Shown in pieces: positions 1,725-56,366 of a stretch of 58,177 bases of DNA. A program made the position numbers and the translations under genes. The notes beneath the pieces are model-generated. The model searched no databases, was not told the origin of the DNA, and worked only from the letters and a program-made list of their open reading frames with translations. The DNA comes from an uncultured archaeon. GTDB taxonomy: Archaea > Nanobdellota > Nanobdellia > Woesearchaeales > CAIVOO01. Location: assembly GCA_903904885.1 (NCBI GenBank), contig CAIVED010000006.1, positions 1 through 58,177 on the forward strand. Reading direction: 5' to 3'. Position 1 is the stretch's first letter, and every line of letters starts with the position of its first letter.

Positions 1725-1985
1725 CTACTCCTTTTTCTTCTTCTCTTTTCTTAAATTGCTTTTGCTTTCAGAGCCCTCTGCAAAGCCCTCTTCCCAGTCG
1801 TCAATCTCATCCTCTTCAAGCTCCTCTTCCCTTCCTTCCTCAGAATAAACATTATCCTCTTTCTCGCCTTTTCTTATCTTGAGCTTTTCATCTTCATGGG
1901 AGCCTTCATGCTCCTCTTCCTCATCTTCCAGGCCGCTTTCCTTGGCAAGTTCATCTTCTTCATCCTTTATTTTCTTCTTTTTCAT
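1725..1985 (-). CDS. Small highly charged, acidic low-complexity protein
   Basis: An 86-residue protein made almost entirely of Glu, Asp, Lys and Ser, with basic ends (MKKKKIKDEE and RKEKKKKE) and an acidic middle. No fold, membrane segment or catalytic motif is visible and it is probably disordered. Its ATG overlaps the SerRS stop codon as ATGA (1982-1985), so translation is likely coupled to serS. It could be a tail cut off from a larger protein or a charged chaperone-like peptide. It may also be a chance reading frame in biased DNA. The coupling is the main argument that it is real. Confidence 0.5.
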   Translation of the reverse strand: MKKKKIKDEEDELAKESGLEDEEEEHEGSHEDEKLKIRKGEKEDNVYSEEGREEELEEDEIDDWEEGFAEGSESKSNLRKEKKKKE

Positions 1986-3268
1986 TTTCCCTCTTTTTTT
2001 CCAATAAGCTTTTTCCCGTTCATGTAAGGAATCAGGACATCAGGCATCTTTATTGTGCCGTCCTTCTGCTGGAAATTCTCCAGGAATGCCACAAGCGCCC
2101 TGGATGTTGCAACGCAGGTGCTGTTCAGCGTGTGAACGAGCCTGTTGCCGTCCTTTGCCTTGTATTTTATGTTCAGCCTGTTGGCCTGGTATGTGGTGCA
2201 GTTTGAGCAGGAAACAACTTCCCGGAATGTGTTCTGGACAGGCATCCAGACCTCCACATCATATTTTTTTGCAGCCACAATTCCTATATCCCCTGTGCAG
2301 ATGCTGATTGTCCTGAAATGGAACCCGAGAGATTCAAATAGTTCCTCTGCATTTTTTCTCAGTTCCTCATGGAACTTCCAGGAGTCTTCCGGCTTGCAGA
2401 TTATTATCTGCTCAATCTTGTTGAACTGATGCACCCTGAAAATGCCCTTTGTGTCTTTGCCGTGAGAGCCTGCCTCTTTTCTGAAGTTTGTGCTGAAACC
2501 TGCCATTTTTATCGGCAGCTTTGTCTCGTCCAGAACCTCATCCATCCACATGGATGTGAGCGGATGCTCGGATGTGGCTATTAAGTATAAATCTTCTCCT
2601 TCAATCTTGTAGAGCATCTCCTCAAAATCTGCCAGTGAAGTTACACCTTCATAGGCTTTCCGGTTAATCATAAAAGGCGGGATAACAATTGTGTAGCCCT
2701 TTTTGTTCATGAAGTCAATCGCGTATTTTGTTATTGCCATCTCCAGCAATGCAAGGTCTCCTTTCAGGAAGTACCATCTTGCGCCAGAGATTTTTGCTGC
2801 CCTTTCCAGGTCAACCCATTCGTTCTGCTCTGCCAGATCAGCATGGGATTTAAGCTCAAATTTAAATGCCGGTTTCTTGCCGAATGTTTTTACAGTCACG
2901 TTGTCTTCTGAGTCCTTTCCTTTCGGAACTGATTCATGGAGAATGTTCGGAAGCCGCATCAGGTAATATTTTATTTTATCTTCCCTTTCTGCAACTTCTT
3001 TTTCAATCTGCTCAATTTTTTTCGGTATTTCCTGGGCTTCCCTGATTATTTTATCAGCATCTTTTTTCTCTTTTTTGAGCTTGTTAATTTCCATTGATAG
3101 CGCGTTTCTTTTGCTTCTCAGTTCATCAGCTTCGCCCTTCAGCTTTCTCCATTCATTGTCAAGCTTCAGGACCTCATCCAGCCATCCCAGTTTCTCAGAA
3201 TCGCCTCTCTTCTGGAGGTCTTTTTTTACAATTTCAGGATTCTCCCGTATGATTTTTATTTCCAGCAT
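1982..3268 (-). CDS. serS: Seryl-tRNA synthetase, bacterial-type
   Basis: Charges tRNA-Ser with serine in the cytoplasm. From the ATG at 3268 the protein is 428 residues, the usual bacterial-type length. The reading frame continues upstream but would run through the oppositely oriented FKBP gene, and the product clearly begins MLEIKIIRENPEIVKKDL. The N-terminal antiparallel coiled coil that grips the long variable arm covers roughly residues 25-105. Class II motifs follow: motif 2 around FRKEAGSHGKDTKGIFR and motif 3 around NSTCVATSRALVAFLEN. A cognate tRNA-Ser(GCU) lies at 7315-7425. The stop overlaps the next ORF as ATGA. Confidence 0.95.
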   Translation of the reverse strand: MLEIKIIRENPEIVKKDLQKRGDSEKLGWLDEVLKLDNEWRKLKGEADELRSKRNALSMEINKLKKEKKDADKIIREAQEIPKKIEQIEKEVAEREDKIKYYLMRLPNILHESVPKGKDSEDNVTVKTFGKKPAFKFELKSHADLAEQNEWVDLERAAKISGARWYFLKGDLALLEMAITKYAIDFMNKKGYTIVIPPFMINRKAYEGVTSLADFEEMLYKIEGEDLYLIATSEHPLTSMWMDEVLDETKLPIKMAGFSTNFRKEAGSHGKDTKGIFRVHQFNKIEQIIICKPEDSWKFHEELRKNAEELFESLGFHFRTISICTGDIGIVAAKKYDVEVWMPVQNTFREVVSCSNCTTYQANRLNIKYKAKDGNRLVHTLNSTCVATSRALVAFLENFQQKDGTIKMPDVLIPYMNGKKLIGKKEGK

Positions 3269-3415
3269 GGGAATTAAATTGCTATTTGGGTATTTAAAGG
3301 TTTTTGTATATTTTACCAAAACCCTTTTAAAACAATATACTTTTTGCTGCCCCAAATCGTTCAAATAAGAGTTCTTATTTTTACGGTTATATCTTACAAA
3401 TAACTGGGTGATAAA

Positions 3416-3847
3416 ATGGCAGTCAAGAAAGGAGACAAGGTAAAGGTTGACTATACTGGGACATTTGAGGACGGCACTGTTTTTGATGCCTCGGAGAAGC
3501 ACGGCCAGCCATTGGAGTTTGAGGTAGGCGCAGGCCAGATGATTGAGGGTTTTGACAAGGCAGTTGTAGGCATGAAAAAGGGCGAAGAGAAGGAGATATC
3601 CATCAAGCCGGAAGAGGCCTACGGAGTTCACAGGCCGGAACTGATGAAGAAAGTCCCGAAAGAGGCTATCAAGGGAATGGACCAGGAGCCGAAGCCGGGA
3701 ATGATGCTTGGCTTGGCTGCGCCTGATGGCAGGCAGTTTGCAGTCAAGATTGCGGCTGTCAGCGAAAAGGAAATAACACTCGACTTGAACCATCCTCTTG
3801 CAGGGAAAACGCTGAAGTTTAAGATTAAGGTTGTGGATGTTTCTTAG
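3416..3847 (+). CDS. FKBP-type peptidyl-prolyl cis-trans isomerase (SlyD-like)
   Basis: A 143-residue folding helper that isomerises prolyl bonds. The FKBP half-domains are VKVDYTGTFEDGTVFDAS with GQMIEGFDKAVVGMKKGE at the N-terminus and LDLNHPLAGKTLKFKIKV at the C-terminus. Between them, about residues 70-125, is the insert-in-flap chaperone domain typical of archaeal short FKBPs and SlyD. There is no signal peptide, so it acts in the cytoplasm. A TATA-like stretch (ggttatatctta) lies about 25-30 bases before the ATG. It diverges from serS. Confidence 0.95.
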   Translation: MAVKKGDKVKVDYTGTFEDGTVFDASEKHGQPLEFEVGAGQMIEGFDKAVVGMKKGEEKEISIKPEEAYGVHRPELMKKVPKEAIKGMDQEPKPGMMLGLAAPDGRQFAVKIAAVSEKEITLDLNHPLAGKTLKFKIKVVDVS

Positions 3848-25566: not shown

Positions 25567-26799
25567 ATGAACGTCCGGAAAAACTGCATAAAATGCAAGG
25601 GGCGGCTGTGGTGTGGGGGCAGCTTTTGCCCTATTTTGAGGAAAACACAGGTTCTTGCCAGAACAGTTAAAGGGTTTAATCCTAATTCAAGCTCAATCTC
25701 AGGAGAAGCCCCAAGCGTGTTTGTCGGCAGGATCGGATATCCGGACATAAATGTCGGGATTTTGTCTGCCAATGATACTAATACTGCTGTTTACGATGAC
25801 CCCCGAAAGTGGGCCAGTGAGAATCTTGAAATCCCGAAAATAATTGATTATCGGGCTTCTTTGATAAACTCCCGGTTCAAATCGCATGTGAAGCAGACAG
25901 ACAAATTTCTTGAAACAAGCCAGGAGGTTGCGCTTTCATCAAAACCTGTTGAAATGGACATTGAGCTGAAAGACAAGCCACGATTTAGGGTTTCGTTTCA
26001 TTCAAACACGCCTCCCATGGGCCCCAATGCCCAATTGGAAAAAGCATACATGAAAGAGAATCCTAAAATCCACACAAAGGTTGAGAAAGTTAATAGCCAG
26101 AATGATTTGAAAGCGAGCGAGGCGATGAATTATCTGTTTGACCATGGTTTTGATGAGAATTTTTTATCCAGAATACTGAGCGTTGGAACCCTCGGAGTAA
26201 AACCCCAAAGGAAACTAGTGCCGACAAGGTGGGCAATAACTGCGACTGATGATACTCTGGGAAAAGAGTTGATAAAGGAAATAAAGGATTTTAAATCAGG
26301 GGATTACGAGTTTTATTTCGGCAACTATCTTGGCAACTATTACATGTTTATGCTTTTACCGGATGTCTGGTCCTATGAATTGTTTGAGACATACATGCCG
26401 AGAACCGCGTGGAATACTGAGAACAGGATACAATTCATGACAGACCATGAAACCTATGATGGCAGAAAATCCTATGCAGAAAACTGCGTTGGCGGTTATT
26501 ATTCTGTCCGGTTGGCATTGCTTGAGAAATTAAAATCAATGAAGCGGCAGGCAACTGTTTTGACGTTGAGATTTATTACAGATGATTATGCAGTTCCTCT
26601 CGGGGTTTGGGTTACGCGTGAGGCCGCAAGAAAAGCGCTGAACAGCAGGCCGATAAAATTCAATGACAAGGAAACAATGCTGAATTATGCAAAAGCCCTT
26701 GTGAAGAAAAAATGGGGCTATGATGCCCAATGCCTGTACAATGAAAGCGTTTTGCTGAGAAACATGAAAATGCAGAGGAAATTAATTGGCTTTATCTAA
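25567..26799 (+). CDS. Nre-family DNA repair protein with zinc finger and PCNA motif
   Basis: 410 residues, full-length archaeal Nre. The N-terminal zinc motif is CIKCKGRLWCGGSFCPIL (residues 7-24); the core includes GEAPSVFVGRIGYPDINVG and the conserved YLGNYYMFMLLPDVWSYE. The C-terminus ends MQRKLIGFI, fitting a PCNA-interacting peptide (Q-x-x-L-x-x-F-I). Halophile Nre proteins are linked to repair of DNA damage and bind PCNA; that role is taken from the family. It converges on the HAD gene with an 18-base overlap. Confidence 0.9.
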   Translation: MNVRKNCIKCKGRLWCGGSFCPILRKTQVLARTVKGFNPNSSSISGEAPSVFVGRIGYPDINVGILSANDTNTAVYDDPRKWASENLEIPKIIDYRASLINSRFKSHVKQTDKFLETSQEVALSSKPVEMDIELKDKPRFRVSFHSNTPPMGPNAQLEKAYMKENPKIHTKVEKVNSQNDLKASEAMNYLFDHGFDENFLSRILSVGTLGVKPQRKLVPTRWAITATDDTLGKELIKEIKDFKSGDYEFYFGNYLGNYYMFMLLPDVWSYELFETYMPRTAWNTENRIQFMTDHETYDGRKSYAENCVGGYYSVRLALLEKLKSMKRQATVLTLRFITDDYAVPLGVWVTREAARKALNSRPIKFNDKETMLNYAKALVKKKWGYDAQCLYNESVLLRNMKMQRKLIGFI

Positions 26800-27459
26800 C
26801 AACCTGGCAATGACAACTCCTAAATTTTCAGGCTTTAAAACCAATCGAGACTCTGGAATGCTGTATTCTTTCATCGCTGCTCTCAGAAGTTCCGGGCTGT
26901 AAAAACCCCCGTATCCTGTGACTATTGGAATCATTCCTGTTTCAACAGCAGCCTTGATGTCCTGAATCTCGTCTCCGGCGTAAATGCATCTTGAAGGTTT
27001 AATGTGCAATTCAGTTGCAATCAATTTCAGCAGCTCTGTCTTTGAGCTGCCATGCTCCTTTGTGCCGACTAAATCAAAAAGGCCTGCCAGTCTCTCTCTT
27101 TTCAAAAATGGGCCAATAATCCTCCCGGAATTGAGTGTTGCAATTGCCTGTTTTTTTTCTTTTAGCTTAACCGCATGCAAGGTTTCCCGCATCCCTTGGA
27201 AAAGCGGTGCAGGGTCCAGGTTAAAGTAATGTATGAATTCCTCCCAAATCATGTGCTCGTCTTTTTTCAAATCAAAGCCCATAATCCTGTAAACTTCCAT
27301 TCCAAGGCCCCTGCCCCTGAAGCCGATTATTTTTTCTTCGGGAGACTGCTTGCTGTATTTGTGGCATAAATACCGGAAAAAGTCATCCCTAACAGGATTA
27401 GAATTCACCATATGCCCGTCATAATCATGGATAACTCCAGCAATAGATCCATTTTTCAT
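26782..27459 (-). CDS. HAD-superfamily phosphatase
   Basis: 225 residues. Motif I is VIHDYDGHMVNS (nucleophile and general acid Asp), motif II AIATLNSG, the motif III Lys lies in KTELLKLIA, and motif IV is CIYAGDEIQDIKAA. A helical cap sits between motifs I and II, as in phosphoglycolate or beta-phosphoglucomutase-type enzymes. Substrate unknown. Downstream of it on the same strand, 170 bases of unassigned sequence separate the unusual P-loop array. Confidence 0.82.
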   Translation of the reverse strand: MKNGSIAGVIHDYDGHMVNSNPVRDDFFRYLCHKYSKQSPEEKIIGFRGRGLGMEVYRIMGFDLKKDEHMIWEEFIHYFNLDPAPLFQGMRETLHAVKLKEKKQAIATLNSGRIIGPFLKRERLAGLFDLVGTKEHGSSKTELLKLIATELHIKPSRCIYAGDEIQDIKAAVETGMIPIVTGYGGFYSPELLRAAMKEYSIPESRLVLKPENLGVVIARLLDKAN

Positions 27460-27628: not shown

Positions 27629-29569
27629 CTATAGCTTTCCAAGTTTTTTGCCAATTTTTTTGATATTCTCTTGCAATCTTGAAAGTTCGGCATGAAATTT
27701 ATCGTTGATGCTAATAAAATATCTTATTTCATTTTGATCAACAAGCTCTTTTCCTTCCGTTCTTTTGTTATAAAATGGGGCTATAAACTTAAAAAATTTA
27801 AACATGCCTCCAAAAAATTTCTCGGCATATTCCGAAAATGGGGCATAATTTCCATTCCAATAAGTTCTTACAAAATCATTGGGTTGTTTAAAAAAAGGAT
27901 ATCCATTTAGGGGGTCTTTCATCGCTTCTTCATTACTGGTAACTTGCAAGACAGTTTCTAAAAAATGATATGAGAAATGTGCGAGATATTTATCCACCTG
28001 TGCCGGATAAGAATCTTCTAATCCTTGTGCTATAACTATTTCAGCAGAACCATTTATCTTTTGGAGGGCGCCAAAAGCCTGCAAGGTTCTTGAAACAGGG
28101 TATATTCTAGAAAATCCGCTCAAATAGATTGACTGAAACTCTGCCATCTCTTTTAATGCGGTAGGCCAGTTCAAAATTAGCCCTCTTAGCAAATCAAGGG
28201 AATATTCATTGGCCCCCATAGACTTTTTTGTTTCCTCGCAAATATAATCATAGTAAGACTTGAGGGCGGAAGCTGCGGAGTCATAACCAATAGCAGAAGC
28301 GTATGAATGTGCCTCTTTTACGAGACCAATCTGGTAAAACAAAACTCTCGCTGGGTCTTCCAATATTGTTTCATTTATCTCACTTATAACCGCTCCAAAA
28401 TCGAGGGCCAGATTTAAAGTTCTCAGCACATTTAATTCTTCCAGACCAGGAATGCAATAATACTGGTATCTGAAGTCTCTTGCAGAGACTCCTTCAATCC
28501 CAAGTTTATCATGCCGTTCCGGGGAGACTAACAATCCTTCAAGATTTTCCCTTTTTTTCATTAGTCCAGCATATAATTGTTGCATCAGTATTGTTTCTAT
28601 AAACCCCCCTTGCCCAATTTTATTGCTGGCTACTCTTTGCAACCCTCCCATTATTTTACCGGCCATTTCTTGTAGTCTCTCTGGCTCGTTTAAGTCTGCG
28701 AGAAGTTTAAGCAGCATTAAAGGACCGACCGCTGCAAAATCCGCTGGGTGGTAATCTCTGGAAGATAATATCATATTTGATAGAAAATCGTTTGGAGCGC
28801 CTTCAATCAATGGATATGTCTTGAATAGCGCAAACCTCTCAGGGATTATCTGTTGCTGGATCCGCACTAGGCCTGAGATTGCCTTTTTTAGGCCTATCTC
28901 ATTTTTCATTAAATACTTTAAGGTTTCCCCGAGGGTTCCTTCTCTAAAGTCATATTCAACTTCCGGCATCTCATTTTTTTCTAATGAAATAATTATATCA
29001 TTAAGATACTTTTTAATCTCTTCAGGTTCAGAAATATTTGCTGGCTTATTTACTACAATAACATTAAAATTATCTATATTGTCTAAATATTCAAGAAGAT
29101 TCTTTTTGTTTTCTTCTTCTCTTTTCAGAGGGTCCTTCTTTTTTCCGGAAACCATTCTTTTTCTTATTTCACCAAGGTCTGAAAGAAACAATATTTTCCT
29201 GACCTCATAATCCTCAAAAAAATTTGCAATTTCATCTAAAATAGGATAGTAAACAATTTGTTCAACAACTTTCTCCCCCGCATCTAACGCTTCTTTAGTT
29301 TCTGTGATGGGGAAGCCATAAAAGTTGCCATTTTCCTGATTTGGGTAGCGATGAACCCCAATCAGTTCTCCTTTCGCGTTTTTATCCAAAAATTCTTCCT
29401 CTGTTACAAAGAAACCATGGGTTGATTGAGTTCTGTCATATTGCCTGCTGTCTATCTCTTCTTCCCTCTTGGCTCTGGTGGTCCAACGTAAAGAGCGGTT
29501 GATACCTCCTGTGCATGAAGTCTTTCCTGAGGAACTAGGTCCCACTATAAGTTCAAGTTTTCCTGGCAT
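27629..29569 (-). CDS. Guanylate-kinase-like domain fused to a large helical domain
   Basis: 646 residues, last gene of the array. The first 200 residues are guanylate-kinase-like: P-loop GPSSSGKT (10-17), then RSLRWTTRAKREEEIDSRQY, HGFFVTEEEFLDKNAKGELI and NGNFYGFP, which follow the GMP-binding order of Gmk. The remaining 430 or so residues are a helical domain with no family I recognise; it has several AFGALQ/LLKLLADL-like hydrophobic helices but no membrane segment. The ATG is 25 bases inside the end of the preceding gene and has a GGGAG site. Kinase activity is not assured; the extension may sense or bind a partner. Confidence 0.78.
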   Translation of the reverse strand: MPGKLELIVGPSSSGKTSCTGGINRSLRWTTRAKREEEIDSRQYDRTQSTHGFFVTEEEFLDKNAKGELIGVHRYPNQENGNFYGFPITETKEALDAGEKVVEQIVYYPILDEIANFFEDYEVRKILFLSDLGEIRKRMVSGKKKDPLKREEENKKNLLEYLDNIDNFNVIVVNKPANISEPEEIKKYLNDIIISLEKNEMPEVEYDFREGTLGETLKYLMKNEIGLKKAISGLVRIQQQIIPERFALFKTYPLIEGAPNDFLSNMILSSRDYHPADFAAVGPLMLLKLLADLNEPERLQEMAGKIMGGLQRVASNKIGQGGFIETILMQQLYAGLMKKRENLEGLLVSPERHDKLGIEGVSARDFRYQYYCIPGLEELNVLRTLNLALDFGAVISEINETILEDPARVLFYQIGLVKEAHSYASAIGYDSAASALKSYYDYICEETKKSMGANEYSLDLLRGLILNWPTALKEMAEFQSIYLSGFSRIYPVSRTLQAFGALQKINGSAEIVIAQGLEDSYPAQVDKYLAHFSYHFLETVLQVTSNEEAMKDPLNGYPFFKQPNDFVRTYWNGNYAPFSEYAEKFFGGMFKFFKFIAPFYNKRTEGKELVDQNEIRYFISINDKFHAELSRLQENIKKIGKKLGKL

Positions 29570-30564
29570 TTTTCTCCCTTGATAATTCTTCTCATTTCAT
29601 TTACATTCGATTCATAATCTCCTTGCAGCACATGATCAGCATGCTGTCTGTAAGTATTTATCCATTTCAAATCTGAAAGGAATTTTTTGATTCTTTTTGT
29701 ATCGTGCCGCGCGATAAGCCCTTGCTCAACCATGGATGGTTCGGTTAAAATAAGCACTGTCCTCACAAGATCAGGGAAGTCGGTCTTTAAATTAAATGCG
29801 GCCTCTGGATTGCAGGTATCAAACAACCAGCAAAATTTGCTCTGTTTGGCTGAAATAAGATCAAAAAGGCTCAGCCCGTATAGATTATACATATACTCAT
29901 GCGCAGCATATATTTTATCTTGCTTTAAATGCTTTTCAAATTCAGCTCTCTGAATGCTGACAATCCCATCTAAATCTCTCTCTTCTGAGAAACGATATTG
30001 CCGAGTGGTTATTTTGGGAATCTGGCATATTTCAACATTTTCTGTTAATTTTTTTATCATTGTTGTCTTGCCAGAACCAGTCGGACCGCAGATAACATAC
30101 AGTCTCGGTTTGGCATAGTTGGGGATAAGATCAAACCATGGGGGCAATTGGGCAGTAAGTGCGATTAGCATATCAAATTGAAGATGCCCAACCGCCCATT
30201 CATAATCTATGGTGTTTACATTTTTTGTTTTTTCAAATACTTCTTCTCCTATCTCATAAAGACAAACCTCCGTGTGTGCTAACCTTGTGAAGATTTTTGA
30301 GTCTACAGTTTCTGCCAGCATATCAGTATCTTTAGGGAAATGAGCGCGTGCCTGCCCAACTTCATTTACTACCTCTGAAACAACACTTTTTCTTTTAGCA
30401 AGTTCGGAAAGAGCAGATATATTGATTCCTTCTTCTCTTGAAAATCCGTATTTTAAAAAACCAAAGAGCCTAAACGCTCTCTCGCTTAACAATTCTAAAA
30501 GTTTAGCCTCCGCATCCAATTCAATTTTTTTCCTATTAGGAGTCATATTTGATGTGATTATCAT
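29545..30564 (-). CDS. Guanylate-kinase-like P-loop protein, array member 4
   Basis: 339 residues. The N-terminal 140 residues are helical and unassigned (LSERAFRLFGFLKYGFSREEG, then a linker helix EWAVGHLQFDMLIALTAQLPPW). From residue about 152 comes the array's core domain: LYVICGPTGSGKTTMIKKL (canonical P-loop), IPKITTRQYRFSEERD, LYGLSLFDLI, and CWLFDTCNPEAAFNL. The same blocks recur in the next three genes, so it is a paralogue. It lacks the receiver-like N-terminus of those. It is separated from the upstream gene by 76 bases, the only gap in the array. Confidence 0.72.
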   Translation of the reverse strand: MIITSNMTPNRKKIELDAEAKLLELLSERAFRLFGFLKYGFSREEGINISALSELAKRKSVVSEVVNEVGQARAHFPKDTDMLAETVDSKIFTRLAHTEVCLYEIGEEVFEKTKNVNTIDYEWAVGHLQFDMLIALTAQLPPWFDLIPNYAKPRLYVICGPTGSGKTTMIKKLTENVEICQIPKITTRQYRFSEERDLDGIVSIQRAEFEKHLKQDKIYAAHEYMYNLYGLSLFDLISAKQSKFCWLFDTCNPEAAFNLKTDFPDLVRTVLILTEPSMVEQGLIARHDTKRIKKFLSDLKWINTYRQHADHVLQGDYESNVNEMRRIIKGEKCQENLNL

Positions 30565-30640
30565 GTTTAGCTTCTCTTAGTCTCTTTTTCTCTTTCATTC
30601 TCCCTCTGTTCTCTCAGTTTAGTATTCTTGCTTTTTCGCG

Positions 30641-31804
30641 TCATTTTTTGTCTTCAGTGATTATTTTTATCATTTCTGTTACATTATCACTGACTCTTGT
30701 CCCTCTTAAAACAAAGTCAAGGTCTGGGAGGTATTTTTGGAACTCCTTTGCTTCCCGGAGTATTCCTTCTAGTCTATTTTTGGTCTGGACTTTTGTTGCC
30801 TCTGCTTTTTTAAGAGCTTCAAGTTCGTCTTGCATTGATGAAAACTGCTCAGATGGTTCATCTATTGCTTTGATTCTTTGTTCAAGGCCGAATCCTGCAA
30901 AAGAAAGTTCAGGAAAAACCCCAACCAGTTTTACAAATTCTGGAAATTGCTCTCTTAATTTATTGGCTGCTTCAAAATCACAGGTATCCCAGACATATGC
31001 TTCATGATTATCACTAAAAATTAAGCTGAGATCTTCTCGTCTTAGGCCGTAAAAATTTTTGTTATATGTATGTCCTGCTAAAACATTTTTCATTTTTTCA
31101 TGAAAAGCCAGTTCTGCAGGAGAAACAGAGATTATGCTCTGCCTGTCCTTTGATGATCTGTACTCTCTAGTTGTCAATTTAGGCAGCTGCTTAACTCCAT
31201 AAATTTGTAACTCTTCACTAAGCGAGCTTTTGCCAAAAGCTGAAGGAGCAACAAGAACATACAATTTTTTTGAGGTAGGTCTAAGAAAGTACTGTTCAAA
31301 TAAAGGCATTGGTTCTATAGTCGCTTCGCTAAAACCCGGGTACCAAAAATCCATTGAAAAAAGAAGAGGTTGTCCCTCATGCCTTGAAGATGCGAGGCCA
31401 GCTTGATACGCTCTTGCAAATGATTCCTCAACTTGCCCATCCAGTAAGTGAAATGCATACAAATAACAACCATTTTTCCAGCTTTGTCTGGCATTTTTGA
31501 CTGGTCGCAAGGTTATGGGGTCAGCCGGGACCGTAATGCCCTCTGAAGCACCACAGAAAATTGCTTTTGACCCAGAACAGGAACTAATAATATTTTTTGT
31601 TTCCGGACACAAATCTCTCTGAATCAACAACAAATCTGGTTTAGATTTTGACTCTGCGATAAAATTTGCAGCATCTTCCAGGTATAAAAAAATGCTCATA
31701 TTAACACCTGCTGACTCATCAATGTAATTATACCTCCGTTTTTCCGGAGCTTCCTCAACCATCATATTGTTTTTTTTGATCAAGTAAAGTATATTTTTTG
31801 TCAT
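30641..31804 (-). CDS. Receiver-like domain fused to guanylate-kinase-like domain, array member 3
   Basis: 387 residues. N-terminus NILYLIKKNN and then EDAANFIAESKSKPDLLLIQ with KAIFCGASEG and ITLRPV follow the strand/helix order of response-regulator receivers, but the phosphoacceptor Asp position is Gln, so it would be a pseudo-receiver. A helical middle section follows, then from about residue 176 the core: KKLYVLVAPSAFGKSSL, LPKLTTREYRSSKDRQ, FYGLRREDL, YVWDTCDFEAANKL, LVGVFPEL. The start overlaps the previous stop as ATGA. The receiver reading is inference. Confidence 0.72.
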   Translation of the reverse strand: MTKNILYLIKKNNMMVEEAPEKRRYNYIDESAGVNMSIFLYLEDAANFIAESKSKPDLLLIQRDLCPETKNIISSCSGSKAIFCGASEGITVPADPITLRPVKNARQSWKNGCYLYAFHLLDGQVEESFARAYQAGLASSRHEGQPLLFSMDFWYPGFSEATIEPMPLFEQYFLRPTSKKLYVLVAPSAFGKSSLSEELQIYGVKQLPKLTTREYRSSKDRQSIISVSPAELAFHEKMKNVLAGHTYNKNFYGLRREDLSLIFSDNHEAYVWDTCDFEAANKLREQFPEFVKLVGVFPELSFAGFGLEQRIKAIDEPSEQFSSMQDELEALKKAEATKVQTKNRLEGILREAKEFQKYLPDLDFVLRGTRVSDNVTEMIKIITEDKK

Positions 31805-32913
31805 CTCTTGTCCCTCATGATTATCTCGAGCATCTGGAGAACATTGTCTCGTACGTTGCCCGCATTAAGTAAATGGTCAAAACTTGGAATAAAAGGAAGA
31901 TAATTTTTTAATTCAACAAAGGCTCGGTCTAAACGCTGGTTTGTAGTCCTGACCAGTTGCTCATTTTTTTCAATTATTCTGTCTAATTCTGAAGTTGACG
32001 TTGCCAGGGTAATTACTGGCTCTGAGGCCTGGATTTTTCTCTTCTCTAATCCAATACCTACAAGACTTCTTCCTGGAAATATTCCTACCACTTTCACAAT
32101 ATCCGGGAACATCCGCTTTAATCCCAACGCCGTTTCAGGATCGCAGGTATCCCACACATGAGCATCAACCTCTTTTAAAAATACGCTTTCAATATCTTTC
32201 TTTCTTATGCCATAACGTTGTTCATGATACAAGTGTGAACCAACTATTTCTCCTTGGTTTGCTTCAGAAATGAAAACTTTGGGAGAAACGGAGAGTATAG
32301 CTCCGCTTAGCATTTCATTGCTTCCTGGGCGGTAAGGTCTGGTTGTTATTTTAGGAATAATTTTAACGCACAGGTGGCTAATATGATTGCTTATTGTGCT
32401 TTTACCATATCCCGAAGGAGCACACAGAACATACAATTTTCCTGATGGTTTTTTTGCAATGTAATCAGTAACAATTCTGGATCTAAATCCTCCAAATATC
32501 CAGCCATTCATATCATTTACCCTTAAGCTTCTACTTGCTATAGAGTTATGAACAATGTTTGAATACTGAAATGCTGTAACATATCTGCGGAGGTTTTCCG
32601 GAATCTCTTCTGAAACACGTATTGGATAGGAATCTGTGGTTACTGTGTGACCTCCATGACAATTTATAATTTTTAGTCTTTTGAATTCTTTTCTAAATTG
32701 GCGGGATACTTCTAGTGTGGGGTCTACGGCAAATACATAAACCCAGTCCTCAGAAAAATCCTTCGGCAGGTCAAGAATTCCTTTTAGTTTTCGAGTTCTG
32801 ACTGGCTTCAAGTCTTTTGAGTCCCAGTCAATTGAATATATGTGTTCAGTACCGCCTTTATTAAATGAGCCCATCTTATTATCTACATATAGGATCTTAA
32901 TTTCTTCAGTCAT
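31801..32913 (-). CDS. Receiver-like domain fused to guanylate-kinase-like domain, array member 2
   Basis: 370 residues, same layout as its neighbours. The N-terminus EEIKILYVDNKMGS begins like a receiver strand with VDN in place of the acidic pair, and VYVFAVDPTLEVSRQFRKEF occupies the place of the phosphoacceptor strand. Core from about residue 163: GKLYVLCAPSGYGKSTIS, IPKITTRPYRPGSNE, RYGIRKKDIESV, HVWDTCDPETALGL, VVGIFPG. Start and stop both overlap neighbours as ATGA, so translation is coupled along the array. It likely arose by tandem duplication. Confidence 0.73.
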   Translation of the reverse strand: MTEEIKILYVDNKMGSFNKGGTEHIYSIDWDSKDLKPVRTRKLKGILDLPKDFSEDWVYVFAVDPTLEVSRQFRKEFKRLKIINCHGGHTVTTDSYPIRVSEEIPENLRRYVTAFQYSNIVHNSIASRSLRVNDMNGWIFGGFRSRIVTDYIAKKPSGKLYVLCAPSGYGKSTISNHISHLCVKIIPKITTRPYRPGSNEMLSGAILSVSPKVFISEANQGEIVGSHLYHEQRYGIRKKDIESVFLKEVDAHVWDTCDPETALGLKRMFPDIVKVVGIFPGRSLVGIGLEKRKIQASEPVITLATSTSELDRIIEKNEQLVRTTNQRLDRAFVELKNYLPFIPSFDHLLNAGNVRDNVLQMLEIIMRDKR

Positions 32914-34121
32914 CTTTTGTCCTCTATGATTATTTGCAGCATTTGCTCAACATTTTCTTCAATAGTGCTGCCGGTTAAAACATGATCGCAATCAGGCAAA
33001 AAATGCATGTAAATCTTTGCTTCTTCAATGCTCTGGTCCAAACGTTTTATGGTGTCAGCAACTCCTCCGCGCTTTAGTTCAATTTGCCTTAGCTGCTCTT
33101 CGAATGTCTTGAATTCCTTATCGGGGTTTAAAAAATTAGAAAGTCTTAGCTCTAAGCCATAACCCGCAAAATCCAAGCTTGGAAAGATGCCCACTAATTT
33201 AACATTTTTGGGATACAATGTCCTTAAAGAATTTGTTGCATCAAAGTCACAAAAGTCAAGAGCATACGCATCAAACAATCCGTCATTTACAGACTCAATG
33301 TCTTCTTTCATAACCCCATAATATTGTCTATTTGGCAGGAAAAAGTGCCCTGCTAAAATATCCCCGTTTTGCTCTAATTGGTTGAAATAGGTAGTCGAGA
33401 TGGAAGCGGTATTGTTTTTCTCATCAGGCCGCTGTTTCCGAGTTGTAATTTTTTGGAGCGGTTTTATGCCATATCTCTCCAGATTTTTGATCATTGTGCT
33501 CTTCCCGTAACCAGGCGGAGCAAGAAAAACATATAATTTTTTTGTTGAGTCTGTCATGAAGAATTCTGTTAATAAAGGAAAAAGTTTAGGAATTACCTCG
33601 CTCGTATTATAAAACTCCAAATTAAGCAATCTGCGTATTCCTGCAAATTCGCCTTGTCTTTTTTCGTGAACCATATGCTCAACTTGTGCAGCATATAATT
33701 TCTCGTTGGCAAGCTTTGTGTCTTCCATAGGCATGCCTCCAAGTACGGAAAAGAAATTTGAGTCATGGGTTACTCCCATAGTATTGATTTTTCCAGACTG
33801 TATTCCTTCCAGACTTGCCATCCCACTGTCTATATGGTATGCCAAAAGAATTTTTGTTTTTGGATTTATTTTTTTGAAGGCTTGCATCGAATTTACAATA
33901 TCTTCATTTAATTCTTGTTCATTAATTAGAATTTTTATTTGGTGCGATGCCGGATCATTCAAAAACATTTTTGCAACTGCCAAAGAATACAAAAAAACTA
34001 TATTTGTTTTGGGTCTCTCGCATTTGATGAGTCCAAAATGCTTATCGGGATGCATTCTCTGGGCACCAGTATTTAATGCTGGCAAATACAATATGTCAAC
34101 GTCTACTCTTTCATTTAACAT
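32910..34121 (-). CDS. Receiver-like domain fused to guanylate-kinase-like domain, array member 1
   Basis: 403 residues from the ATG at 34121, which lies 11 bases inside the Nudix gene. A TTG at 34133 with a GGGAG just before it is an alternative start. The N-terminal 170 residues (VDILYLPALNTGAQR, HQIKILINEQELNEDIVNSM, KTKILLAYHIDSG) again look receiver-like without the Asp. Core: KKLYVFLAPPGYGKSTMIKN, LQKITTRKQRPDEKN, YYGVMKEDIESV, ALDFCDFDATNSL, LVGIFPSLDFAGYG. The C-terminal 100 residues are helical. The end IIIEDKR matches the ends of the next two genes. Confidence 0.73.
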   Translation of the reverse strand: MLNERVDVDILYLPALNTGAQRMHPDKHFGLIKCERPKTNIVFLYSLAVAKMFLNDPASHQIKILINEQELNEDIVNSMQAFKKINPKTKILLAYHIDSGMASLEGIQSGKINTMGVTHDSNFFSVLGGMPMEDTKLANEKLYAAQVEHMVHEKRQGEFAGIRRLLNLEFYNTSEVIPKLFPLLTEFFMTDSTKKLYVFLAPPGYGKSTMIKNLERYGIKPLQKITTRKQRPDEKNNTASISTTYFNQLEQNGDILAGHFFLPNRQYYGVMKEDIESVNDGLFDAYALDFCDFDATNSLRTLYPKNVKLVGIFPSLDFAGYGLELRLSNFLNPDKEFKTFEEQLRQIELKRGGVADTIKRLDQSIEEAKIYMHFLPDCDHVLTGSTIEENVEQMLQIIIEDKR

Positions 34122-34761
34122 AGCCTGAACCAATGAACTCCCTGAACACAGGAAAATGGTCTGCTCTGAAGTTCAGGGAAGTTATGTTTTTCTTTATTTC
34201 TTTTACACTCATCCAACTGCCGCTTTCCACCTCTGAAGAAGGTTTTATCCTCCCTCCTTTAAACCTCAAAAGAAAATATTTTACCTGCTCCTCTTGCTGT
34301 TCATCAACCACAGGCATTTGTCTTATCAGGCGAAGACCTGTTTTTGCAATTTGAACTCCAAGCTCTTCCTTGACCCCTCTTGCGGCTGCTGCTTCATAAC
34401 TCTCCCCAACTTTCGCATGCTCTCCAACGCTAAACTCATGGCATGAGGGATATAGGTCTTTGTCATCTGCTCTTTTTGGAATGTATAGGCTGCCGTTTCT
34501 TTCAAGAAGAACGTTAACTCCCCTATGAAAAAATCCTCTAATCCTTTCCGGGCCGTGGCATTGCCCCCTGTAAAAAAGAAGCTTTCTGCCATTCACTATT
34601 ACCTCTTCATCATCGTTGTCAAATATCTGGAATAATTCCATAGCATCTGGAGAAGTGGGCTGGAAATTGCTGGAATGGGCCAGCAAATAAGAACGTCCAT
34701 GCATCTTGAATCTTGTAGCAGTTCCTAGCTTTTCTTCAAGGGCGGATTTTGAGAGTTTCAT
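34111..34761 (-). CDS. Degenerate Nudix protein, first gene of the array
   Basis: 216 residues. The fold resembles IPP-isomerase/YfcD-type Nudix proteins (FFHRGVNVLLERNGSLYIPKR, then CHEFSVGEHAKVGESYEAAA and ARGVKEELGV). In the box, the conserved Gly is Glu (E114) and the first Glu of REUXEE is Gly (G129), while E132/E133 remain, so metal binding may be weak. An N-terminal domain of about 75 residues (PTSPDAMELFQIFDND) precedes it. The start lies 20 bases past a TATA box, so this gene probably heads the transcript for the whole P-loop array. Confidence 0.75.
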   Translation of the reverse strand: MKLSKSALEEKLGTATRFKMHGRSYLLAHSSNFQPTSPDAMELFQIFDNDDEEVIVNGRKLLFYRGQCHGPERIRGFFHRGVNVLLERNGSLYIPKRADDKDLYPSCHEFSVGEHAKVGESYEAAAARGVKEELGVQIAKTGLRLIRQMPVVDEQQEEQVKYFLLRFKGGRIKPSSEVESGSWMSVKEIKKNITSLNFRADHFPVFREFIGSGYVK

Positions 34762-34780: not shown

Positions 34781-34789
34781 AGTTTATAA
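34781..34789 (-). promoter_or_regulatory. TATA box of the Nudix/P-loop array
   Basis: Read leftward the sequence is GATTTATAAAC, 20-28 bases before the Nudix ATG at 34761. It lies in the 47-base gap after the AbrB-PhoU gene. No other TATA element of this quality is seen in the array, apart from the unclear 76-base gap at 30565-30640. Confidence 0.5.
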
Positions 34790-34808
34790 ATCTTTCTAAT
34801 TTTTACTA

Positions 34809-35735
34809 TTAAGAAGTGGTACTAATTTCTGCAAGGTGCATTGTAAGAAGTGCACTCTTCATTTCAAAAACAGTTTCAAATAGGTTGATTAGATATGCCA
34901 GAACCAGTATGTTGCTGCCGCCTGCACTGCATAATTTTTCAATCTCCTTTCTTATTTTAACTTCCAGGGTCCCAAAGCTTTTTACTTTTTGGATGTTGAA
35001 ATCAAAAAGCAAATCATATAATCTTTCTATCATTACTATGATGTCTTGGAAAAGCTGCAGAAGCTCCTGGCGGAGAATGCTGTTATTTTTGATTATATCC
35101 TTTATTATTGTTTTAAATATATCTGCGGCTATTTCAGTTTCTTCTACAATAACATATAGGGGGGCGGTTAGTTTGTATCCTGTTTGTCCGCCGCGATTAA
35201 TGACTCTCCTGCAAAAATCAGTGTGCCTGTCCACGGTCTGGTCCTTTAATGGCAGGTTTTCAAGATTTTTATAGTCTCTTGCCTTGACAGCGTCGTAGGA
35301 TTCCTTTGCAATTGTAATGAATGCCTGGGCCATCTTTCTAAGAACCTGCTTGAATTGATTTTGGTCCAGCTCGGATATTGCTTTTATCTCAACCACATTT
35401 TCTTTAACATTCATTATCTCATAAACATGGCAGGAACGATAGACCGTGTTTTGGATGACTTCTAACTCCTGGGGGGTATTGTAAGTAATCCTTGCGTAAT
35501 CAAAACCTGATTTGTAAATCGCGGCTATTGTCCTGTTTAGCATAACCCCAGAATCAGACAAATCAATGTTTATCTCTAATTTTTTGGGGACTGTTTCTTT
35601 GGATATGATTACCCTGGACTCTTCTTCGGTCAGCTCTATCTCATCCCCTGCCTTGATTCCCTGGCCTTTCGCCCACTTGCTTGGTAGGCTTACCATGAGT
35701 GTGCTCGGTCCTATTTTGTTTACCTTTCTTTTCAT
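34809..35735 (-). CDS. AbrB DNA-binding domain fused to PhoU-like domain
   Basis: 308 residues. The N-terminal SpoVT/AbrB swapped-hairpin domain (MKRKVNKIGPSTLMVSLPSK, GIKAGDEIELTEEESRVIIS) binds DNA. After a linker, two helical PhoU-like repeats (about 115-210 and 215-300) carry the acidic E-x3-D-type positions that bind metal (ETEIAADIFK). Archaeal members are thought to regulate phosphate uptake genes. No pst transporter is nearby; the nearest genes are the P-loop array (downstream, same strand) and an Lrp-type regulator (divergent), so the target may differ. Confidence 0.85.
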   Translation of the reverse strand: MKRKVNKIGPSTLMVSLPSKWAKGQGIKAGDEIELTEEESRVIISKETVPKKLEINIDLSDSGVMLNRTIAAIYKSGFDYARITYNTPQELEVIQNTVYRSCHVYEIMNVKENVVEIKAISELDQNQFKQVLRKMAQAFITIAKESYDAVKARDYKNLENLPLKDQTVDRHTDFCRRVINRGGQTGYKLTAPLYVIVEETEIAADIFKTIIKDIIKNNSILRQELLQLFQDIIVMIERLYDLLFDFNIQKVKSFGTLEVKIRKEIEKLCSAGGSNILVLAYLINLFETVFEMKSALLTMHLAEISTTS

Positions 35736-35880
35736 TTTAGTGTAAATCCTCTGGTTTAACCGGAATATTTACAGATAATTGCAGCTTATATTTAAATTTT
35801 TCGGAAATGTTAGAATGTTATAATGTATTATTATAATTTAATCAAAATATTTAAATAAGCCACGCTTTTATTAACAGATA

Positions 35881-35915: not shown

Positions 35916-36374
35916 ATGATAAGCAAGAAGGATTTCCAGATTATAGCGCATTTGAGACGGGATGCCAGGATGCCATTGACCACCATGAGCAGGAAGACCA
36001 ACATCCCGGTTTCAACCATATTTGACCGGCTGAAAGACACTGAAAATAACCTGATAGTCAAGCACACCTGCCTGCTGGACTTCGGCAAGCTGGGCTATTC
36101 TGTGCGGGCCAACATAACTTTCAAGGCAGACAGGGATGACAAGGATGCATTGAGGGAATTTTTGCTGAAAAACAACTGCGTAAACTCCCTATACAAGATT
36201 AACAATGGCTTTGATTATCTGGTTGAATGCATTTTTAGGCAGATAAAAGACATGGACCAGTTCCTGGATGAGGTTGATAAGAAGTTTAGGATACAGGACA
36301 AGCAGTCGTTTTTCATAATCGAAGATTTGAAGCGGGAAGAGTTCATGAGCGACCCAAATCCTATTTTCGAATAA
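35916..36374 (+). CDS. Lrp/AsnC-like transcription regulator, first copy
   Basis: 152 residues. The N-terminal winged helix is ISKKDFQIIAHLRRDARMPL with the recognition part RKTNIPVSTIFDRLK; the C-terminal half (SVRANITFKADRD, NGFDYLVECIFR) has the RAM-like alpha/beta order that binds amino acids in Lrp. A paralogue lies 130 bases downstream. Their place next to aromatic amino acid genes suggests control by an amino acid such as Tyr or Phe; that is inference. Confidence 0.82.
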   Translation: MISKKDFQIIAHLRRDARMPLTTMSRKTNIPVSTIFDRLKDTENNLIVKHTCLLDFGKLGYSVRANITFKADRDDKDALREFLLKNNCVNSLYKINNGFDYLVECIFRQIKDMDQFLDEVDKKFRIQDKQSFFIIEDLKREEFMSDPNPIFE

Positions 36375-53585: not shown

Positions 53586-54166
53586 ATTTCAAAAAATCTT
53601 TGCCAAAATGGATTTTGAAATATGATTGTGATGAAATAATAAGACCAAAGGAACGAGGAGATAAATTACTAAATGAACGAATTTTTGTTGTAGAAACTTC
53701 CTTGAATCCTTTTCTTGAATCATATTTCCAGTATAGATTTGCAGATAAAAGAAGAAAGTGTGCTCTTAATTTTCAAGAGTTGTTTATGAATGCAAAAAGA
53801 ATAATTTTTTTTACATACTTAAAAGATGTAAATATTGACTACGGAAAAATAAAAATAGTTAAATATAATTGCCCTGCGTGTTTTCCAGAAATGGAAATAA
53901 GTTTTGAAGTAGAACAATCATTTTCAATAAAAGTAAAAGAAGGAGATGCTGATAAAACGCTTAAAGAATCATTGTTTACCAATATTTTAATAATTGCAGA
54001 ACAGATTAAACAGTTAAATCAGAATAATTATAATTTTTCTCAATTAAACAATTATAGAATTATGCCTGATTACGAAATTCCCGAGAACATAAAACACATA
54101 ATGGAAACTTATGATAATGAAATAATCAGAATTGGAAAAGTATTGTCAAAAGGGATTTTGCCTTAA
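53582..54166 (+). CDS. Unknown protein coupled upstream of the restriction-modification genes
   Basis: 194 residues. A mixed alpha/beta protein with a CPAC motif (KYNCPACFPEMEISFEVE) in the middle that may bind zinc if joined by another subunit's residues, and a helical second half (ILIIAEQIKQLNQNNYNFSQ). No family recognised. It is coupled by ATGA to the small gene before it and ends 55 bases before the nuclease-methylase gene. It could be an accessory factor of that system or an unrelated passenger. Confidence 0.62.
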   Translation: MNFKKSLPKWILKYDCDEIIRPKERGDKLLNERIFVVETSLNPFLESYFQYRFADKRRKCALNFQELFMNAKRIIFFTYLKDVNIDYGKIKIVKYNCPACFPEMEISFEVEQSFSIKVKEGDADKTLKESLFTNILIIAEQIKQLNQNNYNFSQLNNYRIMPDYEIPENIKHIMETYDNEIIRIGKVLSKGILP

Positions 54167-54221
54167 TTTTATCTATAAAAACCGAAAACAATTTAAACCT
54201 CGGGTATTTCTATATATTATT

Positions 54222-56366
54222 ATGAGTGAAGAACTAAACCAAAGGGGGTTAAGTAAAAACGGAATTTTCATCGGGGAATATGAGTTCTTTCCCACCCACT
54301 CTACAACGTTGAATCAATACAAACAATTAAAGATAATTCCTCATAAAAATTATGGAAAATATGATACAAGAAAGCCAGATGGGTTACTCATAGATAGAAG
54401 GGATAAAACTAATCCTAAAGTGATACTTGTTTTAGAATACAAAAAACCCCAGGATTTTCAGAAAGACAGCCAGAAAAAGTATGCTATCGAACAATGCAAT
54501 GATATATGTCAAGTTTTGGACGCAAAGATAGGAATCATAACTGATGGTATTGTAACTTATTGGATTAATCCCAACCATATAGATAAAAAGAATGAATATG
54601 AAGATAGAACAACAAAGGTAAAGAGAAGTTATTCTTTTATTCTTAGTGATGACCAACAAAAGCTATCAAAAAAATTTCTTTTCAAGGAATCCAATCAGAA
54701 AGATGTAACCAAGTTAGATGAAGATGCAAAAGAGACTTATCAAATCATAGAACGCATATTAGAAGAGACAAACACTTCTAACTCCAGATTAAAACCAACT
54801 GAAAAGACAGACCCAAGTGGTCTTGCTAGAAGTGTTTGGCAGAGTATTTACATCAGCACAAAGGACAATCCAACGGCATGTCTTTACAATGTTGTAGAAA
54901 TTTTTATATTCAAGTTCTTAAGTGACTTAGGTGTATTGGAAAGAGATTTTAGTTTTAACCATATTGTAAAAATGTATTCCGATGGGTATCCAAACAAGGA
55001 AGTCCTTGAACATTATGCTACCAAATGCAGGAAGAAAATAAAGGAACTATTCAAAGAAGGTGATGATGGAACTGGGATAATTAATGGAACAATATTTGTA
55101 AACAAAGATGGAACGCCAGTATTATCCCAAGCCACACTATTCAAAGATACTATAGAAAAATATGAGAAGTTTGGGGATTTAAGAAACATCAAGAAAGAAT
55201 TTAAAACAAAACTTTTTGAGACTTTCTTAAAGCAGAGTAAGGATAAAAGCAAACTAGGTCAGTTTTTTACCCCCAGAAAGGTTGTCAATGCTATGGTTGA
55301 AATGGCAGACATAGATAAGGCACAATTTATTTGTGACCCTTTTTGTGGTGTTGGTGGATTTGTATTAGAACCGTTTCAAAGGTCATCCAACCTGAAAAAT
55401 CAGTATTCTCCAAAGAATGGAAGAATAAATCCAAAAACAAAATTGATTGGATATGACTCGGGGAGAGAAGACAATGATGAGCAAAGGAGAACAATTATTC
55501 TTGCGAAAGCAAACATGCTCATATATCTTTCAGATGTGGTTGAAAAGAATCCAAGCCTTAACAAAGAATTTAGTAGAATAATAAACAATACTTTTCATTT
55601 TTTATCAGATTCTAATCTCGGTACTTTGAAAATAATGTTTGAAGAAGAGGAGGATAAACCAGATTTGATACTCACAAACCCCCCATATATTACAAGCGGG
55701 GTTGCTACAATAAGAAAACAAATAAACGAAGAAGGGTTAGGAGACTTCTATACCAATAGTGGTCAGGGCGTTCAAGGACTTTGCCTTAAATGGATTTTAT
55801 CTAACCTAAAAAAAGGAGGTTCAGCGTTTATAATTCTGCCAGATAGTGTTTTTCAGATAGATGTCAACAAAGTATTGCGAGATGAAATAAAAAAATATTG
55901 TTTCATAAATTGCATAATCTCCTTACCCCTAAAGACTTTTTTCAATACGCCTAAAAAAACATTTATTTTGGGAATAACAAAAAAAGCGGATGAAAGTCAA
56001 AAACAGGATTTCCCAGTTTTTACCTATTTGGTTTCCAGCATAGGAGAATCTTTAAATGTGAACAGATTTGAAGAAGAAGACAATGATTTGTTCAAGGCAA
56101 AAAATTTATTTAACCAATATAAGGGAAGTCCAGACTCATTCGAGACAGATGACCCTCGTTGTAAAATTCAACCAATAAAAAATTTTGATGATGATTCATT
56201 CTGGAACATTGACAAATCATGGTCTCATGAAGAAAGAATTGTGCTTGGAATAGATGAAAAAATACCAATAATGACTATTGGAGAATTTGCAGATAAAGTT
56301 GCAGAATTTAGGATAAAAATAATTGAAGCAGAAGATAAATTGAGGGAGCTGAATGAAGATAATTGA
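54222..56366 (+). CDS. Restriction-modification fusion: PD-(D/E)XK nuclease plus N6-adenine methylase
   Basis: 714 residues from the ATG at 54222. The N-terminal HsdR_N-like nuclease shows the catalytic set P52-D53 (KPDGLLID) and E72-x-K74 (VLEYKK), then YAIEQCNDICQVLDAKIGII. A helical linker leads to the HsdM-like methylase: GQFFTPRKVVNAM (about 346), SAM motif I DPFCGVGGFVLEP (about 371), catalytic motif IV LTNPPYITSG (about 485). Fusion of both activities with a separate S subunit is the BcgI (type IIB/IIG) layout. No separate HsdR motor gene is present. It overlaps the S gene by 14 bases. Confidence 0.88.
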   Translation: MSEELNQRGLSKNGIFIGEYEFFPTHSTTLNQYKQLKIIPHKNYGKYDTRKPDGLLIDRRDKTNPKVILVLEYKKPQDFQKDSQKKYAIEQCNDICQVLDAKIGIITDGIVTYWINPNHIDKKNEYEDRTTKVKRSYSFILSDDQQKLSKKFLFKESNQKDVTKLDEDAKETYQIIERILEETNTSNSRLKPTEKTDPSGLARSVWQSIYISTKDNPTACLYNVVEIFIFKFLSDLGVLERDFSFNHIVKMYSDGYPNKEVLEHYATKCRKKIKELFKEGDDGTGIINGTIFVNKDGTPVLSQATLFKDTIEKYEKFGDLRNIKKEFKTKLFETFLKQSKDKSKLGQFFTPRKVVNAMVEMADIDKAQFICDPFCGVGGFVLEPFQRSSNLKNQYSPKNGRINPKTKLIGYDSGREDNDEQRRTIILAKANMLIYLSDVVEKNPSLNKEFSRIINNTFHFLSDSNLGTLKIMFEEEEDKPDLILTNPPYITSGVATIRKQINEEGLGDFYTNSGQGVQGLCLKWILSNLKKGGSAFIILPDSVFQIDVNKVLRDEIKKYCFINCIISLPLKTFFNTPKKTFILGITKKADESQKQDFPVFTYLVSSIGESLNVNRFEEEDNDLFKAKNLFNQYKGSPDSFETDDPRCKIQPIKNFDDDSFWNIDKSWSHEERIVLGIDEKIPIMTIGEFADKVAEFRIKIIEAEDKLRELNEDN

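Follow-up and report, generated by a model that had tools for sequence, protein, structure and literature searches.

The 58,177-nt stretch of DNA analysed here (the window) comes from an uncultured member of the Woesearchaeales (contig CAIVED010000006.1), a DPANN archaeon of the same order as Candidatus Woesearchaeota nzgw53. It carries a leftward unit at positions 27629–34761, in which a degenerate Nudix gene is followed by five genes encoding proteins with a guanylate kinase (GK) fold, hereafter GK-like proteins (GKLs). The original prediction, made from the sequence alone, had described six leftward genes at this locus, and all six open reading frames are present; it had missed both a gene for an AbrB-PhoU regulator and a divergent Lrp gene. 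The features of the locus are listed below, with archaeal promoter-like sequences given as putative transcription factor B recognition element (BRE)/TATA sequences.

35916–36374, plus strand: Lrp/AsnC-type regulator, divergent from the unit (Pfam HTH_AsnC 8.9e-6, AsnC_trans_reg 5.8e-6)
35789–35803, minus strand: putative BRE/TATA sequence CCGAAAAATTTAAATA of the AbrB-PhoU gene
34809–35735, minus strand: AbrB(MazE)-PhoU regulator, 308 amino acids (aa), assigned from a MazE domain, PhoU profile matches and the pairing statistics given below
34783–34796, minus strand: putative BRE/TATA sequence GAAAGA TTTATAAA (= GAAAGATTTATAAA)
34111–34761, minus strand: Nudix-fold protein (Pfam NUDIX 3.6e-11), in which Gly takes the place of Glu in the RE pair (RGVKEEL)
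32910–34133, minus strand: GKL1, 407 aa, N-terminal part plus GK-fold core
31801–32913, minus strand: GKL2, 370 aa, N-terminal part plus GK-fold core
30641–31804, minus strand: GKL3, 387 aa, core modelled as a guanylate kinase fold
29545–30564, minus strand: GKL4, 339 aa (Pfam Guanylate_kin 1.3e-5), placed by the tree with leucine-rich repeat (LRR)-GKL proteins of other genomes
27629–29569, minus strand: GKL5, 646 aa, N-terminal GK-fold core plus a C-terminal region of ~440 aa (TIGR03263 1.2e-10)

The overlapping junctions described previously are present at four positions, with exact 4-nt overlaps at GKL1/GKL2 and GKL2/GKL3 and longer ones (~23–25 nt) at two others; GKL3 and GKL4, however, are separated by 76 bp. 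The AbrB-PhoU gene lies on the same strand as the array, 47 bp upstream of the Nudix gene. Both putative promoters were read from the sequence, and that of the Nudix gene, ~21 bp ahead of its ATG, agrees with the promoter originally proposed there. With a BRE/TATA-like sequence ahead of AbrB-PhoU and another ahead of Nudix, transcription of the Nudix-GKL genes could start from their own promoter or from that of the regulator. A HAD gene downstream, at 26782–27459, was considered as a further member of the unit and rejected on account of its own preceding TATA-like sequence and a gap of ~170 bp.

All five GKLs are relatives of guanylate kinases by the profile TIGR03263 (E values 5.7e-6 to 2e-12), and no Guanylate_kin match was found in the window genome outside the array. 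The scores (26–47 bits) nevertheless fall far under the 160-bit equivalog cut-off. Matches to the ribose bisphosphate phosphokinase profile (PhnN, TIGR02322) reached 14–18 bits at best, against a cut-off of 156 bits, the match for GKL5 being weak. A profile built from eight cores returned guanylate kinases of E. coli, Bartonella and other organisms as its best PDB matches (E value ~1e-15), with MAGUK and LRGUK/FAP42 proteins ranking under the true kinases. Likewise, the AlphaFold core of GKL3 gave only guanylate kinases among the fold matches listed from the PDB (E value 3e-11). The predicted local distance difference test (pLDDT) score of this model was mostly 76–92 in the core and mostly below 50 across the 170-residue N-terminus, and a single-sequence AlphaFold model of GKL2 had a mean pLDDT of 36. 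The guanylate kinase-like fold originally proposed for the five proteins is borne out, but not their likeness to one another: GKL2–4 display 28–33 % identity to GKL1 and GKL5 only 17 %, and the tree assigns GKL4 and GKL5 to other subfamilies. Similarly, the sequence blocks ascribed to all five are shared by GKL1–4, but in GKL5 only those of the P-loop, TTR and YG are found.

The layout of the array recurs in other families of the order. In G037 (Candidatus Woesearchaeota nzgw53), the only genome matched when genome contigs were scanned with closer GKL cores, a small gene separates Lrp from AbrB-PhoU, which is followed by Nudix, GKL, GKL and LRR-GKL genes in the order seen in the window. This shared succession of a Nudix gene and three GKL genes upholds the earlier association of the Nudix protein with the GKLs. 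Genomes G042 and G045 carry Lrp, AbrB-PhoU and GKL at one locus. In G299, one contig ends with Lrp, AbrB-PhoU and a GKL5-like gene, while another starts with a GKL5-like gene and two LRR-GKL genes; we infer that these contig ends represent a single broken array. GKL1–3 group with two G037 proteins (support 99), GKL5 with proteins of G045, G299 and G301 (support 97) and GKL4 with LRR-GKLs. The array therefore consists of three subfamilies common to other families of the order, and its origin by recent local duplication, which would have made it peculiar to this genome, is rejected by the tree.

A central feature of these loci is the pairing of GKLs with the AbrB-PhoU regulator. Among genomes with multidomain GKLs, found by GKL search, 19 of 20 have one GKL beside an AbrB-PhoU gene, compared with one among the 17 loci of single-domain guanylate kinases. 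The Fisher P value for these counts from inspected loci (2e-8) is a guide only, since contig ends cut short part of the single-domain neighbourhoods and the genomes are related. In the reverse test, in which loci were picked by AbrB-PhoU score alone, 14 of 42 AbrB-PhoU genes had an immediate GKL neighbour, compared with ~0.1 expected from gene numbers; as the scoring profile was built on GKL-linked regulators, the figure applies within their clade. Of the 14 neighbours, three (L072, L075 and L108) have diverged strongly, and no P-loop can be recognised in them. The junctions themselves are also distinctive: exact 4-nt overlaps occur at 21 of 56 convergent junctions of AbrB-PhoU genes versus 3 of 90 other convergent junctions at the same loci, with the sequences TTAA, CTAA, TTAG or CTAG representing interlocked stop codons (e.g. 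L047:7736–7739, L048:7943–7946 and L051:3858–3861). The usual arrangement elsewhere is convergent, and the co-directional array of the window is thus the less common form. The pairing recurs across the order, so that the array looks like a signalling module based on phosphate and not like a part of nucleotide metabolism.

The regulator partner has an AbrB/MazE DNA-binding domain in 18/18 family members and is typically encoded by two to six genes per genome, with 17 in one genome. Lrp/AsnC homologues adjoin it in L011, L012, L013, L045 and L068. Partners other than GKLs (n=30) are often also proteins that handle phosphate, with His_Phos proteins (5), phosphoenolpyruvate (PEP)-utilising, Enzyme I-like proteins (4), HAD proteins (2) and a HATPase of the histidine kinase type (1). 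The Enzyme I-like partners are convergent with AbrB-PhoU in four genomes (L080:5639–7483, L092:2–2200, L103:323–1969 and L107:5692–8682), which hints that the family also receives phosphotransfer input of another kind; the histidine phosphatase-type neighbours (His_Phos_1, 5/30) are also convergent (e.g. L074:5400–6323, L082:6018–6635 and L088:5810–6604). Three other partners (L085:6013–9381, L098:5789–8650 and L068:4320–5288) resemble aminoglycoside-phosphotransferase-type kinases by eye, with no supporting Pfam match. Partner classes cluster on the AbrB-PhoU tree (15 changes versus 26 when shuffled), indicating that pairs are co-inherited with occasional switches. Proteins of this kind are known from other archaea: the AbrB/SpoVT-PhoU protein TK2245 of Thermococcus appears in a list of proteins associated with the chromosome (PMC7325993), and proteins of the PhoU type form one of the larger families of regulators in Pyrococcus (PMC6316755).

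Multidomain GKLs span 340–830 aa, the relatives of GKL5 measuring 617 aa (L013), 527 aa (L045) and 625 aa (L058). Beside AbrB-PhoU genes, a receiver domain is fused to a GK or P-loop core in L046 (1.4e-8) and L078 (7.6e-9), and two receiver copies each are fused to such a core in L095 (1.3e-26) and L091; LRR fusions occur in L011 and L044 and, weakly, in L064. These receiver and LRR fusions point to a role in signal transduction. A tandem double-GK protein in genome G329 (L059:5038–6775) overlaps a Nudix gene and has no AbrB-PhoU neighbour.

We then compared active-site residues between 43 multidomain GKLs and 16 single-domain enzymes of the same lineage. In the guanylate kinases of yeast and bacteria, the GMP phosphate is bound by Arg38, Arg41, Tyr50 and Tyr78, and guanine is recognised by Ser/Thr80, Glu69 and Asp100. 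Multidomain GKLs retain the P-loop Lys (43/43), Arg38 (40/43), Arg41 (38/43) and Tyr78 (38/43). Tyr50 is present in 2/43, while position 80 is Ser/Thr in ~1/43 and mostly Ile, Val, Leu or Phe instead; Glu69 (8/43) and Asp100 (4/43) are also mostly missing, the alignment at these two positions being less certain than at the others. Among the single-domain controls, Tyr50 (12/16) and Thr80 (8/16) are retained. With the guanine-reading residues lost and the phosphate clamp kept, the ligand is probably a phosphorylated compound other than GMP; the substrate initially proposed, a nucleotide, is not supported if taken to be GMP.

Considering these data together, we hold with moderate confidence that the array is an expanded form of a previously undescribed phospho-signalling module of Woesearchaeota-type archaea with AbrB-PhoU as its output. 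The core pair would comprise the AbrB-PhoU protein (an AbrB/MazE DNA-binding domain and a PhoU-like helical domain) and one or more multidomain GKLs. The N- or C-terminal domains of the latter (receiver, LRR, helical or other) would receive a signal; the GK core would bind ATP at the intact P-loop, and its retained Arg-Arg-Tyr clamp would hold a phosphorylated ligand. We infer that the state of this core, or the product of any catalysis there, is relayed from the GKL to the regulator, possibly by contact between the two. The Nudix-fold protein probably senses or acts on the ligand of the GK core. That of the window scores 43.6 bits against PF00293 (cut-off 21.1), yet the complete GX5EX7REUXEEXGU box is absent, RE being replaced by RG both here (RGVKEEL) and in G037 (RGCMEEL). 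This Gly for Glu suggests that the protein may bind rather than cleave its ligand; Nudix proteins near GKLs elsewhere vary.

Several observations weigh against this interpretation. GK-type matches are patchy, occurring in 33 of 353 genomes of the order with the GKL profile, with few added by a sample of the phylum, and one LRR-GKL gene of genome G045 (L013:5124–6104, minus strand) has decayed, with in-frame stops and a lost P-loop. No receiver domain was detected in the window GKLs by Pfam search, and their N-terminal part is modelled with low confidence in GKL3. Because convergent genes do not share a transcript, their linkage by position does not by itself imply a single pathway, and the remaining non-GKL partners of AbrB-PhoU are mixed, several being ordinary housekeeping genes. 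The PhoU-like assignment of the C-terminal domain is the weakest structural link: Pfam PhoU matched 2/18 members, and for a profile of 66 relatives the best natural PDB matches were PhoU structures with weak scores (4q25, E value 0.002; 2i0m, 0.0037).

A less probable explanation, which we nevertheless regard as the strongest competitor, is that the GKLs are non-catalytic readers of phosphorylated ligands, in which the GK fold, as in MAGUK scaffolds of eukaryotes, binds a protein in its phosphorylated state (the regulator, perhaps, or a phospho-receiver), and ATP has only a structural or switching role. The retained clamp and lost guanine readout would fit such a reader, as would the MAGUK and LRGUK/FAP42 proteins among the PDB profile matches, albeit below true kinases, and the LRR and receiver fusions, which look like scaffold or sensor design. 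However, MAGUK GK domains have degenerate ATP sites, unlike the GKLs, in which the P-loop Lys is intact in all 43 proteins, and this argues for retained ATP binding or catalysis.

It is rather unlikely that the GKLs are metabolic kinases. They would then be divergent kinases of GMP, or of sugar phosphates in the manner of PhnN, whose copies multiplied to serve salvage, and the Nudix protein would be a phosphatase with a housekeeping role. The fold, the want of another Guanylate_kin match in the window genome and the weak PhnN match of GKL5 speak for this explanation, PhnN itself being a GK-fold enzyme with a non-nucleotide substrate. Yet no GK match occurs in most genomes of the order, so the reaction is not required from the GK family; scores are far under both equivalog cut-offs; and five copies, a paired regulator and receiver or LRR fusions in relatives are atypical of metabolic enzymes.

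A toxin–antitoxin or defence system, in which the MazE-type regulator is an antitoxin and the P-loop kinases are zeta-like toxins or LRR sensors of invaders, is very improbable, for although the MazE/AbrB domain, the LRR and P-loop architecture, the patchy presence and the decayed copy could suit it, PADLOC gave only weak P-loop and Nudix cross-matches, none convincing, the neighbours are housekeeping genes (tRNA synthetases, SMC, Nre and the like), a scan of viral contigs yielded no relative, the AbrB-PhoU regulator is 300 aa long and present in 2–17 copies per genome, and the pair is usually convergent, unlike an antitoxin–toxin operon. The defence role suggested earlier is accordingly not supported, and the locus is rejected as a defence island.

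Returning to the phospho-signalling module, a bolder and more tentative proposal is that it exemplifies a novel class of signal transduction in archaea. A phosphorylated second messenger, made or read by GK-fold enzymes with receiver, LRR or other input domains, would control the AbrB-PhoU regulators and partly replace histidine-kinase two-component systems in small-genome DPANN archaea, with PEP-utilising enzymes and histidine phosphatases as alternative inputs to this regulator family. The window genome returned only two HATPase_c matches, both in long ORFs that are possibly topoisomerase- or MutL-like, so classical histidine kinases may be absent. For the little-understood sensing and regulation of DPANN archaea with ~1-Mb genomes, the repeated pairing of AbrB-PhoU with phosphotransfer enzymes offers a concrete, testable signalling hypothesis and proposes a function for a GK-like family otherwise annotated, probably wrongly, as nucleotide kinases.

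Elsewhere in the window, a protein resembling seryl-tRNA synthetase and extended by ~175 residues at its N-terminus is encoded at 1982–3793 (minus strand), and an N-6 DNA methylase, which may belong to a restriction-modification locus, lies at the window end (54132–56366, plus strand).

The claim that no described system has this layout held in our full-text literature searches, in which no description of a GK-fold/AbrB-PhoU pairing was found, and the closest known systems each share only some of its features. GKLs resemble Gmk (TIGR03263/PF00625) in the fold, P-loop, TTRxxR phosphate clamp and Tyr78, but differ in being multidomain proteins, here in an array of five, that are linked to AbrB-PhoU and have mostly lost Ser/Thr80, Tyr50 and the guanine-contacting Asp. 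PhnN (TIGR02322) resembles the GKLs, as interpreted here, in being a GK-fold enzyme whose substrate is not GMP; GKLs, however, score ≤18 bits with its profile, and no phosphonate genes were seen beside the array. In eukaryotic LRGUK and MAGUK proteins, the GK core is fused to LRR or scaffold domains and the phosphate clamp is reused. Some GKL relatives share the LRR fusion, but GKLs are archaeal, have an intact P-loop and are paired with a DNA-binding regulator. Archaeal AbrB/SpoVT-PhoU regulators such as Thermococcus TK2245 combine an AbrB DNA-binding domain with a PhoU domain (PMC7325993), as the regulator here probably does, although their pairing with GK-fold proteins was not found described in the literature searched. 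Lastly, the fusion of receivers to GK or P-loop cores in L046, L078, L091 and L095 is reminiscent of two-component response regulators, but their second domain has a GK fold, no receiver was detected in the window GKLs and the window unit has no histidine kinase. The component folds are already known, and it is their combination that is new.

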